A stretch of 26,098 nt of DNA, taken from positions 1-26,098 of IMG/VR virus record IMGVR_UViG_3300049846_000073; one strand, written 5' to 3'. The position numbers were made by a program, and so were the translations under genes. Origin of the DNA: a virus. Positions 1,335-20,141 of this stretch are shown here, one piece after another. The notes below the pieces were generated by a model. That model did no database searches, had not been told where the DNA came from, and saw only the letters and a list, made by a program, of their open reading frames with translations. Every line of letters starts with the position of its first letter. Within the stretch, counting starts at the first letter, position 1.

Positions 1335-3098
1335 TTAAACCCAGGTGGGGACAGGCTTTTTACCAGCGTATCCTCTAGCCTTTTTACGTTGCTCTAGAGA
1401 CATACCAAGACACATATGATTAGCTGCTTGTTGAGGGTCATCTAACCAGCATTCAATGAGGTCTTGGAAGTCTTCTTGTCGTCTTAGCTTCACGGTTTCG
1501 TAAGCTGAGATAGCTAGGGACTCGGTAAAGTATTTAACGCCTTGAGCAAGGGAGTCTAATCTGTCGTCGTGTTTAACTGCGCCTTTCTCACGACACATTC
1601 TACTCATCTGGTAGAAGAGCATGTAGAGGAGTCTGTCTTCTGGAGGAGCGTCGGGGTTGGACTTGTAGTCCCACTCAACCACACCACGGTCAACAATAAG
1701 ACGATGTTGATTAAGAACAGGTTCAAGGGCGTCGATGATCCTGTCTTCCTTACGGACATTAGCGCGGACCTCTTCGATGTCTATGGCTTGTTTGGTCTGT
1801 TGGAGGTGTTTTCTAAACAGCTCTGACACGATGCCATCACCGAAGTTGGTTTCGATGAGTAGCTTTGTAACGTTAAACTTCTTACAGCCACGAAGGATAT
1901 CAAGGAGAGTGTTGTCGCTATAGCCATCGCGGTAAGCTCTAACTTCGTGAACATAGAGGAAGCCGTTCTTTTGACTTATGAAGGTTGCTGCTGTTTCGTC
2001 GGTACCTCTACCCGAAGGGTCAACGGAGCAAATTGTTTCGGTGTAGTTTGTCCATTCCCCTTGTAGCTGCATAGGAGAGTAGAAGTAATCACCTGGGAGT
2101 CCGACTGTTGGGAGGTCTTTGATGACGTTTCGAGGGTCAGAACACCACACAACGGAATCCGGAGCTTGAGTTGGATTAACACTTGTAATGACTAGATCTT
2201 GGAACTTAAGTGGGAACTTCTCAGCGTCACTCAATGACGTATCCAGCATGAACTGCAACATGAAGTTGCTACGGCCCATAGCTGCTTCACGTTCTATTAG
2301 GTCATCATTAGAGAAGCGATCAGGGTCTGTTACCTCCCACTTGTCTGCTCCCATGTCGATGTCTTCCTGCAACTGAGGAGCAATCAAGCCCTCATAGTTA
2401 GACAACTCCCTTGGGTAACGTGCAGGCCAGACAAAGGGACGGTAGTTCCGTTCTGCTAGCTTCCTGTAAATAGTAAAGGTTGTCTGGGGAGTACCCAGGT
2501 ACATAATACGGGAGTCTGGCTTAGGAGTCAGGATCGACTCAGCCTCAGTACACAGCTGCAAGAGCTTCTCACGCATCAATTCAGTGAGAGAGTTGCCCGG
2601 GACCTCTACGTCATCCAAAATCATTAGATCGGCACGAGAGCCCGTCAATTGCCCGGTAATTCCGACTGACTTAACTGATGGGGCCTGGTGAGGAGTGCAC
2701 TTAATGTCAAAGCTAATACGAGACCAACGAGCGGAGTCATCAGTTGGCTTCATGTGGCTAAGCCAAGGTGTATCTGTAATCAGCTTCTGACAAAAGATTG
2801 AGAAGTTATCAGCTCGCTCTTTTGAAGCACTGATAACCATCACTTTCTTCTCAGGGTCATTAAACAGCGTCCACAACACAAACCCTGCAGTCAACCACGA
2901 TTTGCCGACTCCACGAAATGCTTGTATTTGCAGTCGTTTTGGTCCGTGTTGGAGATAGTCACAAATAGCATATTGAGCACGTGTTGGGGACGGTAGACCA
3001 AGTTGATGCCACAACGCTTGAGCAAAAAGCTTAAAGTCTGCTTTCAACAAACTCAGTGAGTCTTGTTGCGATGGCAAGGAGTTCTTCTGGTGTGGCAT
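1335..3098 (-). CDS. terL: Terminase large subunit (T7 gp19-like)
   Basis: This is the packaging motor and nuclease that drives DNA into the prohead and cuts the concatemer. The 587-aa product matches T7 gp19 in length and motif order: Walker A RGVGKS at residues 62-67; SVKSVGITGQLTGSRAD and Walker B LMILDDVE at about 141-164; LGTPQT coupling motif at 201-206; a nuclease domain with VDPSGRGTDET at 359-369, FGDG at 419-422 and the acidic HDDRLD at 510-515. I chose the ATG at 3098, which shares its A with the stop of the preceding gene (TAATG) and has GGAG a few bases upstream. A GTG at 3110 is the alternative. All key catalytic residues appear intact. Confidence 0.97.
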   Translation of the reverse strand: MPHQKNSLPSQQDSLSLLKADFKLFAQALWHQLGLPSPTRAQYAICDYLQHGPKRLQIQAFRGVGKSWLTAGFVLWTLFNDPEKKVMVISASKERADNFSIFCQKLITDTPWLSHMKPTDDSARWSRISFDIKCTPHQAPSVKSVGITGQLTGSRADLMILDDVEVPGNSLTELMREKLLQLCTEAESILTPKPDSRIMYLGTPQTTFTIYRKLAERNYRPFVWPARYPRELSNYEGLIAPQLQEDIDMGADKWEVTDPDRFSNDDLIEREAAMGRSNFMLQFMLDTSLSDAEKFPLKFQDLVITSVNPTQAPDSVVWCSDPRNVIKDLPTVGLPGDYFYSPMQLQGEWTNYTETICSVDPSGRGTDETAATFISQKNGFLYVHEVRAYRDGYSDNTLLDILRGCKKFNVTKLLIETNFGDGIVSELFRKHLQQTKQAIDIEEVRANVRKEDRIIDALEPVLNQHRLIVDRGVVEWDYKSNPDAPPEDRLLYMLFYQMSRMCREKGAVKHDDRLDSLAQGVKYFTESLAISAYETVKLRRQEDFQDLIECWLDDPQQAANHMCLGMSLEQRKKARGYAGKKPVPTWV

Positions 3099-4381
3099 TA
3101 TCGTCTCCACTGGAATTGGCGTTCATGTAAGGCATCGATAGTGCTCATCATTCCACCAGGACCAAACCGCTCTTGGGAGGGAGGAGTAACGTCTGACAAC
3201 CGAACATTTGCGGTACCTCTAGCTGGTTTGGTGTTAGCCTTAAGGGAGGATTTGTTGGTATTTGGAGTGCTACTACGACGTGTATTAGATGAGTTAGTAA
3301 GTCTGTTAGGAAGGACGTTAACCCATTTCTTACCATTCCAGACAACAGCCTTACCGTTTAAAGTAGCTTGAGAGCCAACAGGTCTAACTGGTACTCCGTA
3401 TTGAGTAGCAGCTTTAGCTTCTGCTACAGCAACAACAGGAGGGATAGCAGGTTTAGATGTTGGCTTACCCATCCCAAGCGGTACCCTAGCTCCAGGTACA
3501 GCAACAGTTACGTTAGGGATACCACCAGTCTTTTGCATACCTGGGAACCGATCCAGGTTCTTAGAGATGGTAGTAGCGTTAATGCCTTTAGCTTTAGCTT
3601 GAGCATTCTGAGCAACAAGAGCTGCTTTATCTCCTTTAGCGTCCCATTTGATCTCCCCACCAAAGGCTTCCTGAGCACGTTGTCTCATTAGTGCTTCAGT
3701 GGGGTGGTTATAGGCACGTTCATTCAGAGTACGCTGTTCATCAAGGATTGGTTGTAAGACCTTCCAGGCATCAGCTGCTGTAGTCCCCTTAGGGAGAGGT
3801 TCTGTCTTAAATCGTCCAGGGTCAGGTTGTCCGTCCTTACCGACGTGTGCGTAGTCATTACCCCAGTTCTTACCACCAGTTGTATGAGCTGGTTTAGAAA
3901 GGGGAATAAAGCCTTCAGCTTCTGAACCAACAACATACCCATTCTTCTTTGCAATATCCCAAAGGGATCTCACTTCAAACTCATCCATATTCTGGACAAG
4001 AGCTTCAGTGGAAGATACCGAAGCAGGGTGATGTGCTTCAGTACCAGGAATGGGTTGAGAGACCTTACGTGCTGCTGATTCAGTCGTATTGACATCAGCA
4101 ATGAGATCTGTTGGTTGAGTACCTAAGGCATTGTTGAGAAGATCATTCTCAAACATGTAAGAGCCTTCAGAGACAATATCTCGTCTGGCTCTACGTGTTT
4201 GGCTGATCTTGTTGGAGATGTAGTCATCAAGCCCTTCAACTAAAGTACCGTCTTGTTGAAAGGCTACCTTAAGTCTATTAAGGTGACGCTCCTTATCAAG
4301 AGCCTGATTGCGTCCTATCTGTAGAGCTTGTTGATAGTTCTGTTCACGTTCTTGAAGGAGCCGCAGGGCTCGATCAATCAT
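3098..4381 (-). CDS. Unknown 427-aa low-complexity protein
   Basis: I do not recognise this protein. Residues 1-70 are rich in Arg, Gln, Glu and Lys and look helical or coiled-coil. The middle (about 130-260) contains a more complex segment with NWGNDYAHVGKDG and AWKVLQPILDEQ. The C-terminal third is low-complexity and basic (Ser, Thr, Asn, Lys, Pro). A short element VVWNGKKWVNV at 347-357 resembles the W-x-x-x-W modules of the tail-fibre genes in this window. It lies immediately before terL with a TAATG overlap and follows the 276-aa gene by 15 bases, so it is likely made with the packaging proteins. T7 has no equivalent between genes 18 and 19 of this size. It could be a minor virion or packaging accessory protein, but that is inference from position. 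Confidence 0.8.
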   Translation of the reverse strand: MIDRALRLLQEREQNYQQALQIGRNQALDKERHLNRLKVAFQQDGTLVEGLDDYISNKISQTRRARRDIVSEGSYMFENDLLNNALGTQPTDLIADVNTTESAARKVSQPIPGTEAHHPASVSSTEALVQNMDEFEVRSLWDIAKKNGYVVGSEAEGFIPLSKPAHTTGGKNWGNDYAHVGKDGQPDPGRFKTEPLPKGTTAADAWKVLQPILDEQRTLNERAYNHPTEALMRQRAQEAFGGEIKWDAKGDKAALVAQNAQAKAKGINATTISKNLDRFPGMQKTGGIPNVTVAVPGARVPLGMGKPTSKPAIPPVVAVAEAKAATQYGVPVRPVGSQATLNGKAVVWNGKKWVNVLPNRLTNSSNTRRSSTPNTNKSSLKANTKPARGTANVRLSDVTPPSQERFGPGGMMSTIDALHERQFQWRR

Positions 4382-5229: not shown

Positions 5230-5556
5230 TTAGTTAATATGTTGAAGAATAAGTTGTTCACGAGAGGTAGGACCGAAAGTCTGCCTCATCCATTGGAGCC
5301 AGTTATTACTGCCTTTTGCCTGATTGCACTTCTTACAGGATGGTACAAGATTTGATGTAAGAGTTGGTCCGCCATAGCAACGAGGATATACATGATCAAG
5401 TGTAAGTTCATTGAGTTCATAATGTTTTCCACAGTAGACACAGGTGCAATTAAAATGTTCCTTAATGGCGCGTCTCCAAAGACGCTTTGCTTCGGGACTT
5501 GTCATTGCTATTAGATTGTGGAGATAGTGGTCAGGCTTGGGGAACAGCGGGGTCAT
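5230..5556 (-). CDS. HNH endonuclease
   Basis: This small 108-aa protein is a probable HNH-family DNA endonuclease. The zinc-binding pairs are CVYC (39-42) and CKKC (74-77). Between them lie the catalytic LDHVYPR segment (His55) and the Asn69-containing SNLVPSCKKCNQAKGS. These are the standard ββα-metal features of HNH nucleases. The start overlaps the previous gene as ATGA. HNH nucleases near terminase genes are common in tailed phages, where some support packaging-related cleavage and others are mobile homing nucleases. The sequence alone does not tell which applies. Confidence 0.92.
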   Translation of the reverse strand: MTPLFPKPDHYLHNLIAMTSPEAKRLWRRAIKEHFNCTCVYCGKHYELNELTLDHVYPRCYGGPTLTSNLVPSCKKCNQAKGSNNWLQWMRQTFGPTSREQLILQHIN

Positions 5557-5813: not shown

Positions 5814-6048
5814 ACAACCTAGTCCTTACAAGTTCAGGGTCTACCTTTGGCATGATGTTGGCGAGCTTATCGAGAGGGTTACCGTCGTAAGCAACACCAG
5901 AGATATCGTTCTTAGCTAACCAGTCACAGGCAGCCTTAAGGTCCTGAGTAGAGGCTTCACCAGATTTGATGCGATTGAGGAGTTCCTGAGTCACCATGTT
6001 ATGGAGCTCATTGAACATATCCTCTGTAGCTTTCTTATTCGTGCTCAC
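5794..6048 (-). CDS. terS: Terminase small subunit (T7 gp18-like)
   Basis: This protein would recognise phage DNA and regulate the large terminase during packaging. The 84-aa length fits T7 gp18 (89 aa). The core ELLNRIKSGEASTQDLKAACDWLAKND followed by PLDKLANIMPKVDPELV is typical of cyanophage and related small terminases as I remember them. The start is a GTG at 6048, which overlaps the endolysin 3' end and has AGAGG 7 bases upstream; this favours it over the ATG 10 codons later. Position directly after the lysis genes matches the T7 order 17.5-18. Confidence 0.85.
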   Translation of the reverse strand: MSTNKKATEDMFNELHNMVTQELLNRIKSGEASTQDLKAACDWLAKNDISGVAYDGNPLDKLANIMPKVDPELVRTRLYGRKDF

Positions 6049-6442
6049 GGATTAACCTCTGGAGCTTGATAACATAGTTGGGATCAGTAGCGTAACCTTC
6101 AGCTTTCAGCAGCTCACAGCATTGAGCAGCAGAACTAGCACGGTTAACCCCACGATACCCGTTGTAATCTTTGTACCAACGAGTAACAAGGTAATCAATA
6201 CAGTCATAAAGACTGTTGAAATCACGGAATGAAGCATTGACATGTACCATTCCATGTCCATAGTTTTCAGTGGTGTTGCAGACAGTACCTGCTCCTTTGA
6301 TACCAAAGAAGTTATTCTTTCCAGAGGTAGCAGTACCATGAGCACTCTCAAGGGACCACTGTGCTGCAACGACTTCAGGGAACTTAGCGCCAGCAGCCTT
6401 AGCAGCTTCTTTAACGCCTTCCCAAGTATTAGAGTATGTCAT
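6035..6442 (-). CDS. Endolysin, GH73-type glucosaminidase
   Basis: This 135-aa enzyme probably cleaves peptidoglycan between sugars to release progeny. The segment AAQWSLESAHGTATSGKNNFFGIKG (residues 26-50) carries the catalytic Glu32 and the N-N-F-F-G-I-K-G motif of the β-N-acetylglucosaminidase (GH73/LYZ2) family. The C-terminal part with FNSLYDCIDYLV and AEGYATDPNYVIKLQRLI also fits this family. I chose the ATG at 6442; an upstream TTG at 6475 would overlap the holin-like gene. No signal peptide is seen, so it would need the neighbouring holin-like protein to reach the wall. T7 uses an amidase (gp3.5) elsewhere, so this is a different lysis arrangement. Confidence 0.9.
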   Translation of the reverse strand: MTYSNTWEGVKEAAKAAGAKFPEVVAAQWSLESAHGTATSGKNNFFGIKGAGTVCNTTENYGHGMVHVNASFRDFNSLYDCIDYLVTRWYKDYNGYRGVNRASSAAQCCELLKAEGYATDPNYVIKLQRLIREHE

Positions 6443-6446
6443 AAGA

Positions 6447-6632
6447 TTATTGCGGTGGGTTTGCCATCCAGGCAAAGACAGTAGTAACTACAGCCTGTAC
6501 CATCTCTGGTACTTGACCATCAGGGTCACATTCTTTTCTTACTTTGCTGTGCGCCCAGCAGTTAGCTACCATCTCTGCTGCTAGAAGTAATGGAGCCGTC
6601 ACCGCAATAAGGACGACGGCTTGTTTGTTCAT
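6447..6632 (-). CDS. Holin-like small membrane protein
   Basis: This 61-aa protein has one clear N-terminal hydrophobic segment (about residues 5-24, AVVLIAVTAPLLLAAEMVA) followed by a charged linker (HSKVRKECDPDG) and a second moderately hydrophobic stretch (about 43-56). This layout and its place directly before the endolysin suit a holin, like T7 gp17.5 between the fibre and terminase genes. The ATG overlaps the preceding mini-gene stop as TAATG. A spanin or pinholin is an alternative; holins share little sequence, so the assignment is by context. Confidence 0.7.
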   Translation of the reverse strand: MNKQAVVLIAVTAPLLLAAEMVANCWAHSKVRKECDPDGQVPEMVQAVVTTVFAWMANPPQ

Positions 6633-11609: not shown

Positions 11610-12710
11610 TTACGGAAGAGTAGTAAGAGGAATCGGATCGAATGTAAGATCAACGTTTGTGCCAACAGTTGTGGCAGTGATTGGAGCGTGTCCAGTTACG
11701 GTGGGAGCAGGACCAGGAGGGCCAACAGGACCAGGAATTGTTGAAGGAGCGCCTGGAGGTCCAGGAATACCTTGCAAACCTTGGTCACCTTTTTGTCCAG
11801 CAGGACCAGTAGCACCAGTAGCACCAGCAGGACCCTGAGCGCCTACCTTGCTAATAGAGACCCACTGAATGGAATCACCGTCGTCGTAATAGACAAAGCA
11901 GAAACCAGTCAGGGAGTTAAACCAAAGGTCACCATTAAGGATTGGAGTACCATCATTTCTCGTTGTCGGAGGAGTCTCCGAAACAATGGCCTGATAGGAA
12001 TCACCTTTAGGACCAGTATTAGCCAGGGTTACCCAGGCATTAGCTGCATCATCCCACACCCTCAATACAAGATCTTGGGTATCAAACCAAGTCTTACCCC
12101 GCTGCTCTGAATTAGGCAGAGGAATAGGTGCAGGAGTAGTGTCTTGGAAGTAGGGATCTAGTCGCTGGCTGATAGCATCAGTAGTGGCGATGTATTGATC
12201 GTTTTGGAATGGTTTCCATGCACCGCTTAGTTGATCCTTGCGGAAGATAACATCACCATATGCTGCAGTGTCAGCAACACTGTACTTATTCCAATAGCCA
12301 GTCTTTAAGAGGTTCTGAAGATCCCCATAGACCTCACACTTAGCCTCTTGGATAGCAAGCCGTAGTTGATCGAAATCATCATTCAGATCCTCAGCACGGA
12401 TTGCAGAGCCCGGATAGAACTCGGCAATCATCTTACTAAGATCTGTCGTTCTTGCGATCTTAACGTTAAAGACCTGTTGCTTCCCCGGATCAGGTACCGG
12501 AGGAGCAGGAGGTGCGTCTTTAAATTGAATTGTCGTAGGATTAGCAAAGGACCATTTGTCCCGTGCTACCTCTAAATATGTTTTTGTAGGGTCATCCCAA
12601 AGCAATACATGGACATGCTCACGAAGCATGTATGTAAAGGGGAAGGTAAATAATTTAGTTGTACCGTCACCTTTGTAAGTGATCTGTACGTTATCGCAGA
12701 TCGTAGCCAT
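11610..12710 (-). CDS. Tail-fibre adaptor (T7 gp17 N-terminal domain) with collagen repeats
   Basis: Residues 1-130 match the tail-attachment domain of T7 gp17: ITYKGDGTTKLFTFPFTYM, DKWSFANPTTIQFKDAPP, FNVKIARTTDL, and FYPGSAIRAEDLNDDFDQLRLAIQEA. This domain anchors fibres to the tail. Residues 250-290 hold a GDLWFN...YYDDGDSIQWVS module. Residues 290-322 form 11 consecutive G-x-y collagen-like triplets, with three more at 327-335. The 366-aa length is shorter than T7 gp17 (553 aa), and no receptor-binding tip is visible, so distal parts are likely supplied by downstream fibre genes. The ATG overlaps the gp16-like stop as TAATG. Confidence 0.93.
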   Translation of the reverse strand: MATICDNVQITYKGDGTTKLFTFPFTYMLREHVHVLLWDDPTKTYLEVARDKWSFANPTTIQFKDAPPAPPVPDPGKQQVFNVKIARTTDLSKMIAEFYPGSAIRAEDLNDDFDQLRLAIQEAKCEVYGDLQNLLKTGYWNKYSVADTAAYGDVIFRKDQLSGAWKPFQNDQYIATTDAISQRLDPYFQDTTPAPIPLPNSEQRGKTWFDTQDLVLRVWDDAANAWVTLANTGPKGDSYQAIVSETPPTTRNDGTPILNGDLWFNSLTGFCFVYYDDGDSIQWVSISKVGAQGPAGATGATGPAGQKGDQGLQGIPGPPGAPSTIPGPVGPPGPAPTVTGHAPITATTVGTNVDLTFDPIPLTTLP

Positions 12711-15700
12711 TATTTGTTCTGCATGTTAATTGCGGAGTAGTCCCTTGAGCCTTGAGCCCTACGATTCTTAGCAGCAGCAAGTTCTGCCTGTCTAATCTCT
12801 GGTATCTCAGAAGCTAGTTGTCGTTTAGCGTGATTAACGGTTTGGGTGATTAACCGCTTAATGCGAATATGGGTGTAGGTGTCAGCAAGATCAGCTTGTT
12901 CAGAGGTAATCCCTCTGTCACGCATAGCTTTAATGTTCTTGATATCATCCAGTACACGTTTGTCCTTCATCAGTAGTTCAAGACCTGTACGTAAGTGACC
13001 AGCTTCACCCATGATTTGAGCAAGTCTGGCGCGTTGTTCTGCGTTGTAGGCAACACCTTTAAGTGAAGTTTTAAAGGCAGGCTGTACAGGAAACTCAGAG
13101 TCAATAAGGAACTGCTTAACAGGAGAAGGATCAGAGTTAATCTTGAACGGTAGTGTATTGTTCAGAGCATTAGTGAACGGGTCATTATACCCAACCTTGG
13201 AGCCATCAATCGGATCAATCGCATAAGGGAGAGATTTACCAATACCAACAGCATCAAGGATGTTCCACTTGTTCCTCATCATTGAACCCAGATCACTGTC
13301 TACTTCCCTCAGACCAGGCATCATCATCCTGGACATTTGATTGAAGAGACCGACACTCATGGTGTTAGAAGCCCAACGATTGATAGCATCACCATTACCA
13401 CTAGCCATCTCAGCAATAGGTTGTAGACCTTGGAGGAATGACTTATTGGTAAGGTTCATCGATACTGCAAAGCCAAGCTTATTGAGGAGCTGTTCAGACT
13501 TTGTGGTACCCAGTGTATTAATGTTCTCCAGAACGTCCGCTGTAAGCGCCAGGAAGGTGGCTATAGGCTCAACGCCGTCATAGCTTACCCATTGACCTGT
13601 AGGGGTCCTCCAGGACCTCAGAGGACGCTCTCCGAAGTTCTGTTGGAACTTGTTGGTTTGTTTGTTGTAGCTACCGTTACCTGTGAGGTTACCTGAGGCA
13701 TACATCCAACCACCCATGGTGACCAGTGCAGTACCCATAGCTACACGACCTTCTACTTCAGCACGATAAGTTTTCCAAGCCTGATCAAGTGGTTGCTTAG
13801 TAACATCAATACCCTTAGTAGCAAGGTATTGAGCAACAGCATCAGCATTCTGAGCCCAAGACTTTTCGTCACCAGTCATGCCAGACAACTGCCTTACCTT
13901 TTGAAGGTCACCAATGAAGTAAGACAAAGGTGAATGCTTATGTACAAAGTCCAATACGTTAACCGAAGTACGTGGGAACAGTACAACAGTCTTCAAGATA
14001 GGGGCTTTACTCAGTAGCTTATTAAGGCTCTCAGCGTACTCATTATCCAGGCTCATTGAGATCTCTTGAGAGGCATACTTAGCAGCACTGTCAGTCAGAA
14101 CATCATTATCATCAAACATTGTCCTGTAGATCTTCTGTGCTGCTTCCTGAAGTTGATCAGCATTAGGTGCTTTACCTGTTGCCTTGAGGATCTCATCGTA
14201 GGCTCTACCCCTTGCTTCAGACATAGCCAGTGTTGCCTTAACAAAACCATCACCAGCTTCCATTATGTTCATGGAGTAACGAACCCATGGATGGTTGTTG
14301 ATCTTCTGCATGGTATCCACGAACTGCATCTTGAATGCAGGACCATGGTTACCTTTCAATGCCTCAGCATTGGCGTACTCCCTTGCCAGTTCAAGCATCT
14401 CATTGTTGAGAGTTTTGAAATCAGCTCGTTGAGTGATGGTTGGATCAGCAGCTACCTTACGGAACATCTGTTGCATGTACTGCCCAGATGCTTTCATTGT
14501 GGTATCCATATGGGTAGCGTATTGCATCCATCCACGATGAAGTGTCTGCCAGTCTTGACGAATAATGGCTCCTAAAGCAACGTTTGCAGGCTTCATAAGA
14601 AGCAGTGCAAAGTTGTTAGTAAGGGCTTTAACAGGAGTCAGAAGGGAGGACAGCTTAGCGTTGTAGAGAGCAGCCCACATCCCTTGTACAACTTGACTAG
14701 GGACCTCAGGTTTACCATCAATGAATGCCTTGTTAGTAATGCCAAGGACTTCTGCCATGTAGTTGTTCAGTTTATGGAGACTGTTTACATCACCATCAGA
14801 CAACTCATAAGCCCTCATCAATGGAGAGACATAAGCAGGGTGCTCTTTGTTCATAGTCTTGAGTTCAGTCCAGAACAGACGCTTCCGTTCGGCTTTCAGT
14901 TTCTGTGCAGCCTTGAACTCATCAAGAGTTTTCTTAGCAAACTTAGCAGCTTCATCAGGGCTTTGAGACTTCAGGGTTTCTTGCCAGATCTTTTCATTGT
15001 TCAACCGCCAACCGGCAATCGAACTAGACATATCTGTTTCATACCATAGCACCTGCATCTTATCCAGAATACGCTCTTGGATCTGAGCAACATCTACCTC
15101 CTCTCCAACAACTCGTGCAGCATTAGCAAGGTCAGAGGATTCACCAGCCAGAGCTACCTTCCAATAGGCAGATGCTCGATCGGCATCCATATTCAGGAAG
15201 AACTTAGAGAACTCACTAAGGGCTCTACCTGCTGCAGCTTGAGCTTCAGAGTCAAGAGGAGTAGCCCGTCCAGCACCCATGACTACCTTGATACTATCTC
15301 GATAACCATCAAGGATCTTGTACATATCCGTAGGACGAATCCTAGGATCAAGTAGTTGCATTGCTAGCTTGTCACCAGCAGACATAAGCTCCTTGCTGTC
15401 AGCCATCCTTCCATTAGGAAGAACAACTTCAAAGTTACCTGTCTCTTTGATACGATTGTCCAGTTCAGTAACAAGCTTCCTACTAGTGATCTGATCCAGA
15501 TCCATGCTCTTCAGGAAAGCATCAGTATGAAACTTTTGTGGACGACCATACAAGGTATCAATGTTCTCAGTGATCCTCCAGTTATCCACCAGCATCTGGG
15601 GGATAGCATCCGGCTTCACTGCATGAGGAATGGTCTCATAGGTATCAGAGATTTGACTATGAATGTTAGGCGAGTAGTAGTTGAGGTAGTCAATACCACC

Positions 15701-16612
15701 AATCTGATCAAGTTCTACTTGACCCATCTCATCGATGTGTTGTTGACGGTAGTTCTCATCCTTCAAGATACGATCAAGGAAGGGGTGAGCTGACTTAGTT
15801 TGAGGGGACTTATTCGTGATGGAATCAAAGGCAGCCTTAGCTGTATCATCCTTAGGTTTGAAGGTAACACCAGGAGCCTTACCTTTCAGTGCCTTAGCCC
15901 AGGCAATACTGCCTTCTAAAGCAGAAGCAAGCAGACCTAAGCCTGCCCCTTCCATCACATTCTTATTTCGTTTGATATCAGGACTATCAGAATCAAGCGT
16001 AGCCCAGTCTTCAGGAATCCAACCAACAGCTTGAGGGAGGTTATCCTTCAAGACACGAATAAGGTTGTCCCCTTCTGAGTTACGATTCAGGTAATCAACA
16101 GCTGTACCAGCAGCCATATCAACACCAATGTTTCCAAGCATAGCTACTGCTTTGGATGTATTGGCATACTTAGCCATCTTGGCTACCTGAAGGATGCCTG
16201 CCTTAGTAAGGCTTCCAATACCAATAGTAGGACCAATGAATGAGACAATAGATCTCAGACCTTTACCCCACTCTGTCTTATTTTGAGGACCCCAGTCTTC
16301 AGGAATAAACTCCCAGTCTTGACCACCAAGGGTACCTACTGCTTCAACAGTATCGTCAACAAAGTCAACCATACCACCAACAGCAGCTGTCCCTATTTCA
16401 GCAATAGGGTTAGCTGACTGAGCTTCTTGTTGTTGCTTTTGTTGTTCAGCAGCTTGTGCTTCTTGTTGAGCAACAAGCTCTTCTTGTTTTCTACGCTCCT
16501 CTTCCTCTCGTTGCAGCTGTTCATTCTGCTCGTAAGCTTGCTGCTGATCAAGAGGGTCGATGGATGCAGGCGTTGTACCAGACAACATGTTGCCTATTGG
16601 ATCGTAACCCAT
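12710..16612 (-). CDS. Internal virion protein, T7 gp16-like
   Basis: This 1300-aa protein occupies the position and size of T7 gp16 (1318 aa), which is ejected to form the channel through the cell envelope. Residues 22-66 are a Glu/Gln-rich coiled coil. Several weakly hydrophobic stretches follow (for example about 115-140 and 225-245). The rest is a long, mostly helical sequence. No transglycosylase motif is seen at its N-terminus, unlike T7 gp16; that activity lies in the preceding gp15-like protein. The ATG overlaps the gp15-like stop as TAATG. Identity is by synteny, size and composition rather than a domain. Confidence 0.85.
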   Translation of the reverse strand: MGYDPIGNMLSGTTPASIDPLDQQQAYEQNEQLQREEEERRKQEELVAQQEAQAAEQQKQQQEAQSANPIAEIGTAAVGGMVDFVDDTVEAVGTLGGQDWEFIPEDWGPQNKTEWGKGLRSIVSFIGPTIGIGSLTKAGILQVAKMAKYANTSKAVAMLGNIGVDMAAGTAVDYLNRNSEGDNLIRVLKDNLPQAVGWIPEDWATLDSDSPDIKRNKNVMEGAGLGLLASALEGSIAWAKALKGKAPGVTFKPKDDTAKAAFDSITNKSPQTKSAHPFLDRILKDENYRQQHIDEMGQVELDQIGGIDYLNYYSPNIHSQISDTYETIPHAVKPDAIPQMLVDNWRITENIDTLYGRPQKFHTDAFLKSMDLDQITSRKLVTELDNRIKETGNFEVVLPNGRMADSKELMSAGDKLAMQLLDPRIRPTDMYKILDGYRDSIKVVMGAGRATPLDSEAQAAAGRALSEFSKFFLNMDADRASAYWKVALAGESSDLANAARVVGEEVDVAQIQERILDKMQVLWYETDMSSSIAGWRLNNEKIWQETLKSQSPDEAAKFAKKTLDEFKAAQKLKAERKRLFWTELKTMNKEHPAYVSPLMRAYELSDGDVNSLHKLNNYMAEVLGITNKAFIDGKPEVPSQVVQGMWAALYNAKLSSLLTPVKALTNNFALLLMKPANVALGAIIRQDWQTLHRGWMQYATHMDTTMKASGQYMQQMFRKVAADPTITQRADFKTLNNEMLELAREYANAEALKGNHGPAFKMQFVDTMQKINNHPWVRYSMNIMEAGDGFVKATLAMSEARGRAYDEILKATGKAPNADQLQEAAQKIYRTMFDDNDVLTDSAAKYASQEISMSLDNEYAESLNKLLSKAPILKTVVLFPRTSVNVLDFVHKHSPLSYFIGDLQKVRQLSGMTGDEKSWAQNADAVAQYLATKGIDVTKQPLDQAWKTYRAEVEGRVAMGTALVTMGGWMYASGNLTGNGSYNKQTNKFQQNFGERPLRSWRTPTGQWVSYDGVEPIATFLALTADVLENINTLGTTKSEQLLNKLGFAVSMNLTNKSFLQGLQPIAEMASGNGDAINRWASNTMSVGLFNQMSRMMMPGLREVDSDLGSMMRNKWNILDAVGIGKSLPYAIDPIDGSKVGYNDPFTNALNNTLPFKINSDPSPVKQFLIDSEFPVQPAFKTSLKGVAYNAEQRARLAQIMGEAGHLRTGLELLMKDKRVLDDIKNIKAMRDRGITSEQADLADTYTHIRIKRLITQTVNHAKRQLASEIPEIRQAELAAAKNRRAQGSRDYSAINMQNK

Positions 16613-19371
16613 TACGCACTTCTACCGTGTAAGAATGTATATTGTTTGCCGTTAGGCAGTTGAATAGTTAGCTGATCTCCGTGTTTTGTACGGACTGAAC
16701 CAACAACCTTTGCTCCACCTTTGAGGTAGACCTTAGAGCCAGAGGCAGTCCGATAATCAATACCGTGAGATCCTCGTGCTCGATGCTCAGCTTGACCATC
16801 AGAGGTTCCAACTTTGCTGAGTGGTACGCGACCGTATTGCGGATCATCGACCATCACATAGCGGTCTAGATCAGTAGGTTTGAAGTTACCCCTATCAACT
16901 CTTTTGACATCAAGGTGAGGACCAGTAGATGTAGGACCTTCATTCCCTGTAACGTAGGCAAGCCTAGGACTCATGAAGGCAGGGTTCCTCCAGGGACTAC
17001 CACCAGTTGGGTTATAGCCGTACTTAGCAGCAGCTCTTAACACCTTAGGTTGATATGCTCTGTTCTCTGCTGACTTACGGATGCCACCAGGACCACCGTT
17101 GTAAGCGTAGATAGCTTCCATTGGATCACCTAGTTGAGCAGTTAGTTCACGGAGATACTTAGCTGCATAGTGAATAGAGGCAGTAGCGTTAGTCGGATCT
17201 ACAGTCGGGTGATAACCAGGCATGATCTGTGCAATACCCACAGCACCAGCTACACTCCTTGCCTTTGGATTGAAGTTACTTTCTACCTCAATAAGACCAG
17301 CAAGAATAGCGGGATCAACACCATTAGCAGAAGCCGCTTGAAGAATGACACTGCCATATCCATTAGGGACTCGACTAGGGTCGAAGCTTCCTGTACTTGC
17401 ATAGGCTCTAGCTACTCGATTATAGGAAGGTTTATAGTGAAGCAACCTCACCATCTCTGGTGACATACCAGCAGTCTGCCGCTGTAGATGAGGGTTCATC
17501 GGAAGCTGACCCAACCCTCTTGCTTGTGCTTGACGATTAAGCACTTCCCAAGGACTGATCGTACCTCCAAACCGATTGGAGATATAGGTAGCAATAGCAG
17601 GATACTGATAACTAGGGTTGTTGACATTCTTCAGTGCATCATTGAGAGTAGCAACTGGAATCAATGCATGACTATCTAAGGTGCTAGCACCAGAAGACAA
17701 GATGTTATCAATCTTAGCCTTGTGTTGTATCCAGTTACTGGAATACCCCTTAGGCATAACATTCTTGAAGCCATCTTTATCGTCTACATAGTAGATGCCT
17801 GCTGGGTTGTCTGGAGTAGAGAGTTGAAGGTCTCGTTGGAAGTTAGCGTAGGCATTAGCTGCAGCTTGTTCAGCAGACATAGTGCCAGTATTAAGTGCAG
17901 CAGCAAAGTCTCGTTGGAACTTACCCTGAGCTTTAGCAACAGCCAACTCAAGTCCAGCTTTACCTAGGTCAGTTACGGACTCATTACCAGAGTGACGCTT
18001 GAGATCCTCTTCAATCTGTTTGGTGTACTGCTTGAACTCAGGAGTATCTTTGCGAGCCTTATCTAGGGTCTGTGCTCTAGCAAGGAACGACTGTCTAACT
18101 GAGTAAGGAACAGCAGGATCGTTGAGCATTGCTTCAGTAAGCATCCCTGCTCTATCCAGTTCTTGGAACTGTTGGGTGTAGTAGTTCTTTGATTCAGCAT
18201 CAGTAGACCTACCCTTCCAACGCTCTAGTCGTGGATCAGTGTAGCCTTGGAAGTCATCTTCCAGCTTCTGTTGGACAGCTTCAATCTCCTCCTCTGAAGG
18301 CGGATTCTGTTCCCAGCTATCAACGACTTGATCTAGCCACTGCTTAGCTTCAAGGTGAAGTTCAGCCTGAGATTCATCATAGTCTGCTTGTTCTCGCTTA
18401 GCAGCTTGACGACGTGCTTCTCTAAATTCAATAGGATACTTCTCAGCCCAGGTAAGCTTCCCATCCCAAGAGAGTTGATTACCAATGTCATCAATCTCTT
18501 CGGTAGTAGTGAGTAGTTTGAGAGCCTCTTCCCGTGCCTTACCTCTCGTCATCCCAGCTCGGGTGAAGGTATCAATAACCTTGGAGAAGTTACCTGTGGG
18601 ATCAGCAGCGATCAGCTGTTGACCTTCTGCAATGATCTCTTCCTTAGCTGCATCTTCATCTTGCTTCCTCCACTTATTGAGGTAAGCACTATCCACTTCC
18701 CTCATACCAGGGAAGGCATACTTATTGAGGAGTGCAGGGTTGATACCCATCAGTCCTGTTTGCTGGAAGAACTGTGCCCTTGCATTAGACAAGTAAGCAG
18801 CCTTCTCAGCCGAAGACAGGTTAGGTGGCATATCCTTTAGGAGAGTCTCTAGTGACTGTCCATAGGCGTTCTGAGCATTCTGTGCTACACCCATGGCATA
18901 GCCGTATTGCTTCCAACCACTAAGGGAACGTAGCTTCTGTACTCCCATGAAGGGAGCACCGGATGCTTGGGCAGCATCTCCTACAGCTTGGATCTGATCA
19001 TCTGTATCTTTGAGGTAGCCTTCAGCAATGTTGAAAGCCATCTCTTCTGCAGGGTCAATACCATCAAGGTATGCCTGCATCAGACCATCTTCCATATCAC
19101 GTTGGCTTTGACGCTGAGTCTCCTCTACTAGGTACTTGGAGAGCGTTCCACTGAACTGAGAGAGGGACTCCCAGTTACGTGCAGTGTTATCAGCATTAGC
19201 CTTGCTAACAGCATTCAGGTTCCTACCCTCTGCCTGTTGGTAGAGAGCAAGGTTCTGTTCCTGCTGTTGGTTATGTTCCTGCATCGCAGGGATCAAACTT
19301 CCAAGGTCTCGGGGAGCAAACCCTTTAGCTCGGGCTGAGCCTTGGAATTGAAGTTGTTGAGGTTGGTTCAT
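16612..19371 (-). CDS. Internal virion protein gp15-like with lytic transglycosylase
   Basis: This is a 919-aa core protein likely ejected at infection. Residues 1-650 are largely helical and Gln/Ala/Glu-rich, as in T7 gp15. Residues about 672-785 are a lytic transglycosylase (SLT) domain: catalytic Glu697 in EVESNFNPKA, GIAQIMP at 712-718, and AYNGG near 757-761. It would open peptidoglycan locally during DNA entry. The C-terminus has two pieces resembling an M23 (LytM-type) fold: STGPHLD at 815-821 and GSHGIDY...GDQLTIQLPNGKQYTFLHG at 867-916. Their order is reversed compared with classical M23, and some zinc ligands are altered. The start overlaps the gp14 stop as ATGA. In T7 the transglycosylase is on gp16, so the domain is placed differently here. 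Confidence 0.92.
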   Translation of the reverse strand: MNQPQQLQFQGSARAKGFAPRDLGSLIPAMQEHNQQQEQNLALYQQAEGRNLNAVSKANADNTARNWESLSQFSGTLSKYLVEETQRQSQRDMEDGLMQAYLDGIDPAEEMAFNIAEGYLKDTDDQIQAVGDAAQASGAPFMGVQKLRSLSGWKQYGYAMGVAQNAQNAYGQSLETLLKDMPPNLSSAEKAAYLSNARAQFFQQTGLMGINPALLNKYAFPGMREVDSAYLNKWRKQDEDAAKEEIIAEGQQLIAADPTGNFSKVIDTFTRAGMTRGKAREEALKLLTTTEEIDDIGNQLSWDGKLTWAEKYPIEFREARRQAAKREQADYDESQAELHLEAKQWLDQVVDSWEQNPPSEEEIEAVQQKLEDDFQGYTDPRLERWKGRSTDAESKNYYTQQFQELDRAGMLTEAMLNDPAVPYSVRQSFLARAQTLDKARKDTPEFKQYTKQIEEDLKRHSGNESVTDLGKAGLELAVAKAQGKFQRDFAAALNTGTMSAEQAAANAYANFQRDLQLSTPDNPAGIYYVDDKDGFKNVMPKGYSSNWIQHKAKIDNILSSGASTLDSHALIPVATLNDALKNVNNPSYQYPAIATYISNRFGGTISPWEVLNRQAQARGLGQLPMNPHLQRQTAGMSPEMVRLLHYKPSYNRVARAYASTGSFDPSRVPNGYGSVILQAASANGVDPAILAGLIEVESNFNPKARSVAGAVGIAQIMPGYHPTVDPTNATASIHYAAKYLRELTAQLGDPMEAIYAYNGGPGGIRKSAENRAYQPKVLRAAAKYGYNPTGGSPWRNPAFMSPRLAYVTGNEGPTSTGPHLDVKRVDRGNFKPTDLDRYVMVDDPQYGRVPLSKVGTSDGQAEHRARGSHGIDYRTASGSKVYLKGGAKVVGSVRTKHGDQLTIQLPNGKQYTFLHGRSA

Positions 19372-20141
19372 AGCCCGAACGTATTAGTAGGGTTGTATTT
19401 CCAGTCCACACCAAACGCTGGACCGTAGTACGGCTTGCCACTGGGAGCAGTGAATGTTTGAGCTTTAGGTGGTTCAAATCCCTTCGGTGCCTTCATACTG
19501 GCGTAGGTACCAAACCCACCAAGAGCTGCTCCTGCAATACCCAATGCAAGACTTGAACCACTCGGTCCAGGTACTGCCATAGGCTGTGGTACAGCCATCG
19601 GTTTCTGCGGGGGAATGATGACTTGGTTATATGCTCTCTGGTTAGCAGCTTGTAGTTGAAGGGAGTTATCGTAGAGGCGCTGTCTCATAGCACCCTGAGC
19701 AGAAGTCAGGTTGGCTGCAATGACAGCATTGTTTCTACCAAAGGCTCCAACTGCTGCAGTATCTAGTCGTTGAACACTTCGACCTGAACGTTCACTGGCA
19801 GCGTTGGTACCACGTAGACCAACAAGCTGTTGCATCATGTCCTGCTTCTGGAAGAGGGCTTGTTGGAACTGTTCGTTCATCTGTGCCTGCTCTGAAGCAA
19901 AGGCTCTATCAGATGCGGAGAAGTTCTCATCAACACCTTGTTTGTACTCAAGGCGTTTCTGTGCCCAGATACCAAGTTGGTTCTGCCAATCTAGTTTCTG
20001 CCTTTGGTTGTTGTAATTGTATTCACGCTGGGCAACTTCGTTTTGATAGTCAGCTTGGGCTTGGGCTGATTGATGAGAGCCTACGGCTCCTATTGCCCCC
20101 TGAGCAAATGTTGCTACGCCCGCTGTAATCGGATCGCACAC
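19368..20141 (-). CDS. Internal virion protein B (T7 gp14-like)
   Basis: In T7 gp14 is an internal core protein ejected into the outer membrane at infection. This 257-aa product has the MCDP N-terminus, a weakly hydrophobic start (ITAGVATFAQGAIGAVGSH), a long Gln/Asn/Ala-rich helical middle (about 25-170), a repeated PMAVPQPMAVPGP stretch and a second Ala/Gly hydrophobic segment (SSLALGIAGAALGGFGTYA). The start is a GTG at 20141 with no good Shine-Dalgarno. The MCDP start is what I recall for gp14 homologues, and no other start is near. It overlaps the 3' end of the gp13-like gene by about 92 bases. Position between gp13- and gp15-like genes supports the call. Confidence 0.88.
   Translation of the reverse strand: MCDPITAGVATFAQGAIGAVGSHQSAQAQADYQNEVAQREYNYNNQRQKLDWQNQLGIWAQKRLEYKQGVDENFSASDRAFASEQAQMNEQFQQALFQKQDMMQQLVGLRGTNAASERSGRSVQRLDTAAVGAFGRNNAVIAANLTSAQGAMRQRLYDNSLQLQAANQRAYNQVIIPPQKPMAVPQPMAVPGPSGSSLALGIAGAALGGFGTYASMKAPKGFEPPKAQTFTAPSGKPYYGPAFGVDWKYNPTNTFGL

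Follow-up and report, generated by a model that had tools for sequence, protein, structure and literature searches.

The M23 family represents one of the main peptidoglycan-hydrolase folds. In a virus record of 26,098 bases (IMG/VR record IMGVR_UViG_3300049846_000073; the whole stretch is referred to as the window), the C-terminal part of a putative ejection protein carries M23-like motifs in an order opposite to that of canonical M23 domains, which raises the question of whether it is a rearranged M23 domain and, if so, whether such a domain could still act on the cell wall. Its metal-site residues are kept so strictly in related viruses that we regard a functional cell-wall module as more probable than a remnant without function.

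Gene and genomic setting

The gene (positions 16612-19371, minus strand) is an open reading frame for a 919-amino-acid protein, which was assigned as a gp15-like internal virion (ejection) protein on the basis of its homologues and its PHROG match (phrog_24152, E 1.1e-73), a family of unknown function. It sits in a cluster of internal-virion-protein genes: the upstream gene (19368-20141) and the downstream gene (12710-16612) matched the internal virion protein families phrog_15746 and phrog_6651, respectively, and two more genes further upstream had PHROG matches to tail proteins. By the C-terminal domain, the nearest named phages were Synechococcus phages DSL-LC07, S-CBP1 and P60. The homologous gene of P60 is annotated as an internal virion protein, and that of S-CBP1 lies between tail tubular genes on one side and internal core genes on the other. 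When the complete gene was compared with phages at the DNA level, no match was obtained.

An SLT lytic transglycosylase domain occupies residues 675-772 of the protein (17056-17349, minus strand; PF01464, E 8.3e-21), and T7 gp16 chains were matched in the PDB sequence search; the adjoining transglycosylase domain reported by the first-pass annotation was thus recovered. Weak Pfam matches to BCNT and Ntox37 in the same protein were rejected. Elsewhere in the window, a separate 146-amino-acid glucosaminidase (6035-6475, minus strand; PF01832, E 5.2e-20) is probably the endolysin, and genes resembling a ThyX-like thymidylate synthase (441-1115), a terminase large subunit (1335-3110) and an HNH endonuclease (5230-5556), all on the minus strand, were recognised by eye.

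Motif order and circular permutation

On the basis of profiles, alignment and a structure model, the candidate M23 domain was placed at the extreme C-terminus (residues about 802-919; 16615-16968, minus strand). Its motifs, all on the minus strand, are STGPHLD (residues 815-821; 16909-16929), which aligned with the canonical C-terminal motif STGPHL; then GSHGIDY (residues 867-873; 16753-16773), in which the alignment puts S868 at the canonical place of the ligand His and D872 at that of the ligand Asp; and then FLHG (residues 913-916; 16624-16635), the counterpart of canonical YxHL in the profile alignment, with an invariant H915. The reversed order that the first-pass annotation had noticed is therefore present.

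We compared the domain with a canonical M23 profile of 48 non-redundant domains out of 80, drawn from viral loci, Escherichia coli MepM, a tectivirus peptidase and a domain of cyanophage S-H9-1. Among the 80 canonical loci examined, the motif order was uniform in all 77 domains with a recognised GxD, a control set drawn with a canonical query, whose uniformity therefore says nothing on how common permutation is. A profile of 41 rows of the window family aligned with the canonical profile in two segments of swapped order, positions 66-126 matching 1-68 (score 38.0) and positions 18-31 matching 88-100 (score 32.3). When the canonical profile was written twice, a single alignment ran across the join (18-126 to 88-185; score 60.3, probability 96), while 200 column shuffles reached at most 24.3. 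In the hmmsearch against the PDB, 5kqb and LytM were each matched as two swapped segments, weakly (E 0.026-0.033), and a canonical-order tectivirus peptidase was matched by the family profile with an E of 1.1e-8 over 63 positions. The score to Pfam M23 (PF01551) was 13.6 bits, below the gathering score of 28.7. In the window family, nothing was seen that corresponds to the part of the canonical profile from after YxHL up to the IG strand (positions about 70-83). Sequence-profile homology to M23 peptidases extends over the fold, with the segments in a different order. The swapped-order matches, the single match to the doubled profile, the shuffle controls and the second permuted group described below support the proposal of the first-pass annotation that the domain is a circularly permuted M23 domain.

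The AF2 model of residues 790-919 had a pLDDT of 91.1 and a pTM of 0.84. In Foldseek and VIA-align searches of the PDB, which are order-dependent, no M23 structure was listed either for the whole-domain model or for a model of the C-terminal 78 residues, which we read as a result of order dependence and small size and not as a sign of another fold. The best VIA-align rows, LecB-type lectins at Z 4.0, were rejected as noise at the level of common arrangements. In BFVD, which holds folds of viral proteins, the model matched cyanophage S-TIM5 (E 8.1e-4, TMq 0.68, rmsd 6.1).

The new order could be described as follows. The segment with the last motif (STGPHLx) would have moved to the front, a connector (LDxYV...PLS) would bridge the two original termini, and the YxHL-type strand would form the new end of the chain.

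Conservation and the predicted metal site

Relatives were collected in three scans of IMG/VR (10, the best 80 of 158, and 2), together with the three named phages. The conservation alignment contained 87 rows, that is, the window and 86 locus rows, of which 66 were distinct and P60 was present twice. The domain was found at the extreme C-terminus in the relatives examined, one of which (L055) ends at a contig edge. Two scans of genome contigs revealed no cellular homologues of the domain. In two loci (L003 and L004, match 6001-6438), GGARSE was observed in place of the STGP stretch, with H-L-D kept.

From residue 800 onward, 18 of 120 positions were invariant, and these included all five residues mapped to the active site, H819, D821, H863, D872 and H915 (87/87 rows each). 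The corresponding hypergeometric probability (4.5e-5) is only indicative, as positions were treated as independent and the rows are related.

The first-pass annotation had described an H-x3-D motif shortened to H-x2-D. Such a spacing is literally there (H869-x2-D872), but H869 does not correspond to the ligand His of M23: it stands three residues before the Asp (D-3), at a place that is variable in canonical M23, and is replaced by Phe in 3 of the 87 rows. The canonical ligand position (D-4), which was His in 45 of 48 canonical domains, is taken by S868 and was Ser in all 87 rows. An invariant His, H863 (16783-16785, minus strand), lies nine residues before D872, and we propose it as a relocated zinc-ligand His in an H(x)8D motif; the spacing of 8 was observed in all rows, in place of the canonical 3. 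The replacement of the second HLH His by Asp was borne out (D821), and H819-L-D821 stood for HxH throughout the alignment; Asp is able to act as a zinc ligand. H915, the counterpart of the extra active-site His of YxHL, is invariant but comes later in the chain than the HxD motif. If H863 does serve as proposed, the sole remaining ligand change would be that from HxH to HxD. In the relevant passages of PMC9662197, the n of H(x)nD varies, being 12 in LasA and 7 in phi29 gp13, and zinc is not bound by the first His of HxH.

Several relatives bear on this arrangement. Gp17 of LuzDeMundo has the canonical order and an intact HLH, with an upstream His at the same spacing of 8 and no His at D-4, and two Microbacterium endolysins also contain an upstream His and none at D-4. 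HLD occurs together with an intact H(x)3D in the permuted domains of Acinetobacter and Moraxella phages. S868 and D821 had at first pointed to full degeneracy, a view that was dropped once relatives of canonical order proved to lack the D-4 His and to have one upstream. The suggestion that the domain is probably non-catalytic is not established: the argument had used the wrong His (H869), an H(x)8D motif is formed with the invariant His at D-9, and the spacing of H(x)nD is known to vary.

It was also observed that the HxGxD (D-4) His is missing from five Streptomyces phage tape-measure M23 domains (L180 and L186-L189), in which HLH, YAHL and, upstream, a YAxH His are present; the YAxH His is a possible relocated zinc ligand in M23 domains of canonical order.

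A wider group of permuted M23 domains in phages

Swapped order was also found in proteins with canonical residues. The S-TIM5 protein (AEZ65701.1) reads ...GAHLHMEI...HTGVDIAD...FLAHLL, and in four S-TIM-type sequences the M23 profile mapped in chain order to 66-87, 83-108 and 1-69. Judged from these alignments, the S-TIM-type domains are fully permuted and the segments overlap briefly at YxHL, which would be expected for an origin by tandem duplication and trimming. The final viral scan gave 14 loci, two of which (L193 and L194) were contigs already counted as L098 and L099. All ten IMG/VR loci L195-L204 were permuted (two swapped segments in hhalign), and L205 and L206 were canonical and aligned in one piece, serving as a control for this test. 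L098 was permuted as well, alongside S-TIM5 and S-TIM66, and so were S-TIM54 and tail proteins of Acinetobacter and Moraxella phages; a faecal phage match (L209) was canonical. The window family shares the order HLx, connector, GxD and xHx with this group and was co-linear with 13 permuted domains (score 84.6, probability 98.3; at most 21.2 in 200 shuffles). The connectors also looked alike by eye (LDRYV...PLS in the window family, LDPYI...PPS in the other permuted domains). Scans with the S-TIM66 domain alone and with the LuzDeMundo domain alone found nothing.

Two side observations concern the evolution of these genes. S-TIM5 (L095:7129-10122) and S-TIM66 (L096) look nearly identical outside the permuted domain, whereas the domain itself is only about 40% identical between them; this suggests that it was exchanged as a module. 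In Moraxella phages Mcat18, Mcat21 and Mcat22 (H232-H234), the permuted domain is divided between two annotated tail proteins, compared with one tail protein in Mcat19, Mcat20 and Mcat23; this is a split gene or a frame change within the domain.

Comparison with known systems

With the canonical M23B peptidases LytM and MepM, the window domain shares motifs and strand segments that align piecewise, and both non-ligand His residues are kept; it differs in its swapped segments, in H(x)8D for H(x)3D and in HxD for HxH. The phi29 tail-tip lysin gp13 contains a lysozyme domain plus an M23 domain, the latter with HxH and canonical order, unlike the window domain. It is similar in that it serves phage entry, includes an M23 domain and has a long H(x)nD (n=7, in a passage of PMC9662197). 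The S-TIM5-type cyanomyovirus structural proteins (S-TIM5, S-TIM66, S-TIM54 and L195-L204) are co-linear with the window domain and have the permuted order and a similar connector, whereas their HLH (HAH in S-TIM54) and H(x)3D are intact and the domain is internal in the protein. The tape-measure or tail proteins of Acinetobacter and Moraxella phages (L207 and L208) share both the permuted order and HLD but have an intact H(x)3D, and their hosts are gammaproteobacteria. Gp17 of LuzDeMundo, a Microbacterium tectivirus, and the endolysins of Fransoyer and Pabst contain a DxxAxHxxxGS..GxDY-like stretch with the upstream His; unlike the window domain, they have the canonical order and HxH, and the spacing is 8 in LuzDeMundo and longer in the endolysins. 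Finally, the degenerate LytM factors EnvC and NlpD are alike in having an M23 fold with a zinc-site residue changed, whereas the window domain has a permuted order and shows no variation at the mapped site residues.

Among the papers searched, no description of a permuted M23 domain was found; in the portions of PMC6403190 that deal with the subject, circular permutation is described for NlpC/P60 enzymes and not for M23. The permuted branch escapes order-dependent tools, as seen from the Pfam score below threshold and the PDB fold searches without M23, and therefore the annotation of phage entry proteins may overlook a wall-cleaving module.

Partner domains and possible roles

Among 23 proteins examined, the permuted domain followed an SLT domain in eight, a glucosaminidase in six and a phage lysozyme in one (below the Pfam cut-off), and no Pfam partner was recognised in the other eight. 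One of the latter (L007) had an upstream PHROG endolysin match at 349-659. Four loci (L006:3436-6393, L039, L074 and L078) had the permuted domain and no Pfam hydrolase at E 0.01; in L006, a stretch before the domain looked lysozyme-like by eye. A constant module with a changing glycan-cleaving partner fits better with peptide-side activity or wall binding than with a function that depends on a particular enzyme.

Short-tailed phages eject core proteins that form a trans-envelope channel, as described in parts of PMC8954989, PMC11440229 and PMC11784390. We infer that the ejection proteins bring the domain into the host, where it would act during DNA ejection on peptidoglycan stem peptides beside the glycan-cleaving domain, most likely as a metallopeptidase. 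Its metal site would be remodelled and not lost, with H863 replacing the HxGxD His, D821 standing in for the second His of HxH, and H863, D872 and D821 together with H819 and H915 making up a complete invariant set. We consider this reading, from the permuted fold to the peptidase activity, to have about an even chance of being correct. A broader proposal, to which we give slightly less than even weight, would place the window domain in a clade of phage entry proteins with active permuted M23 domains, in which the metal site of the cyanopodovirus branch is H-D-D (the upstream His, the motif Asp and the Asp that stands for the HxH His) and the unit is shuffled behind a transglycosylase, glucosaminidase or lysozyme.

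It should be noted that strict conservation could also reflect a binding or folding role. The strongest competitor, a serious one though tentative, is that the domain is permuted but degenerate, without peptidase activity, that it binds peptidoglycan or activates a neighbouring hydrolase, in the way that EnvC and NlpD activate amidases, and that it positions the transglycosylase. The change from HxH to HxD in every row would fit such a role, as would the retention of the domain while the linked enzyme differs, and degenerate M23 folds are known protein-interaction hubs according to a section of PMC9662197. On the other hand, the five mapped site residues are invariant, including both non-ligand catalytic His, beyond the hypergeometric expectation, and there are other permuted domains in which HLD stands beside an intact H(x)3D. 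On balance we slightly prefer a metal-dependent peptidase to a non-catalytic binder. Since the rest of the site is invariant, the HLD variant allows one to ask directly if Asp can replace the M23 HxH ligand.

A role in virion assembly or in the ejection channel only, in which a domain of M23 ancestry would provide a contact surface for the internal core and have no peptidoglycan role, appears improbable: the domain does end an internal virion protein, and the gene of that protein adjoins or overlaps the following core gene, but all mapped site residues are invariant and the recognised domains that precede it in the protein are wall hydrolases. Chance likeness of short motifs in an unrelated fold is very improbable, since the M23-free order-dependent structure matches and the lectin rows are set against profile scores far beyond the shuffles, the match to the canonical-order tectivirus M23 and the co-linear match to permuted domains bearing canonical residues. 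At the level of sequence, the motif resemblance is more than chance, because the domain is conserved in the 86 other locus rows and the M23 profile match greatly exceeds all 200 shuffles.
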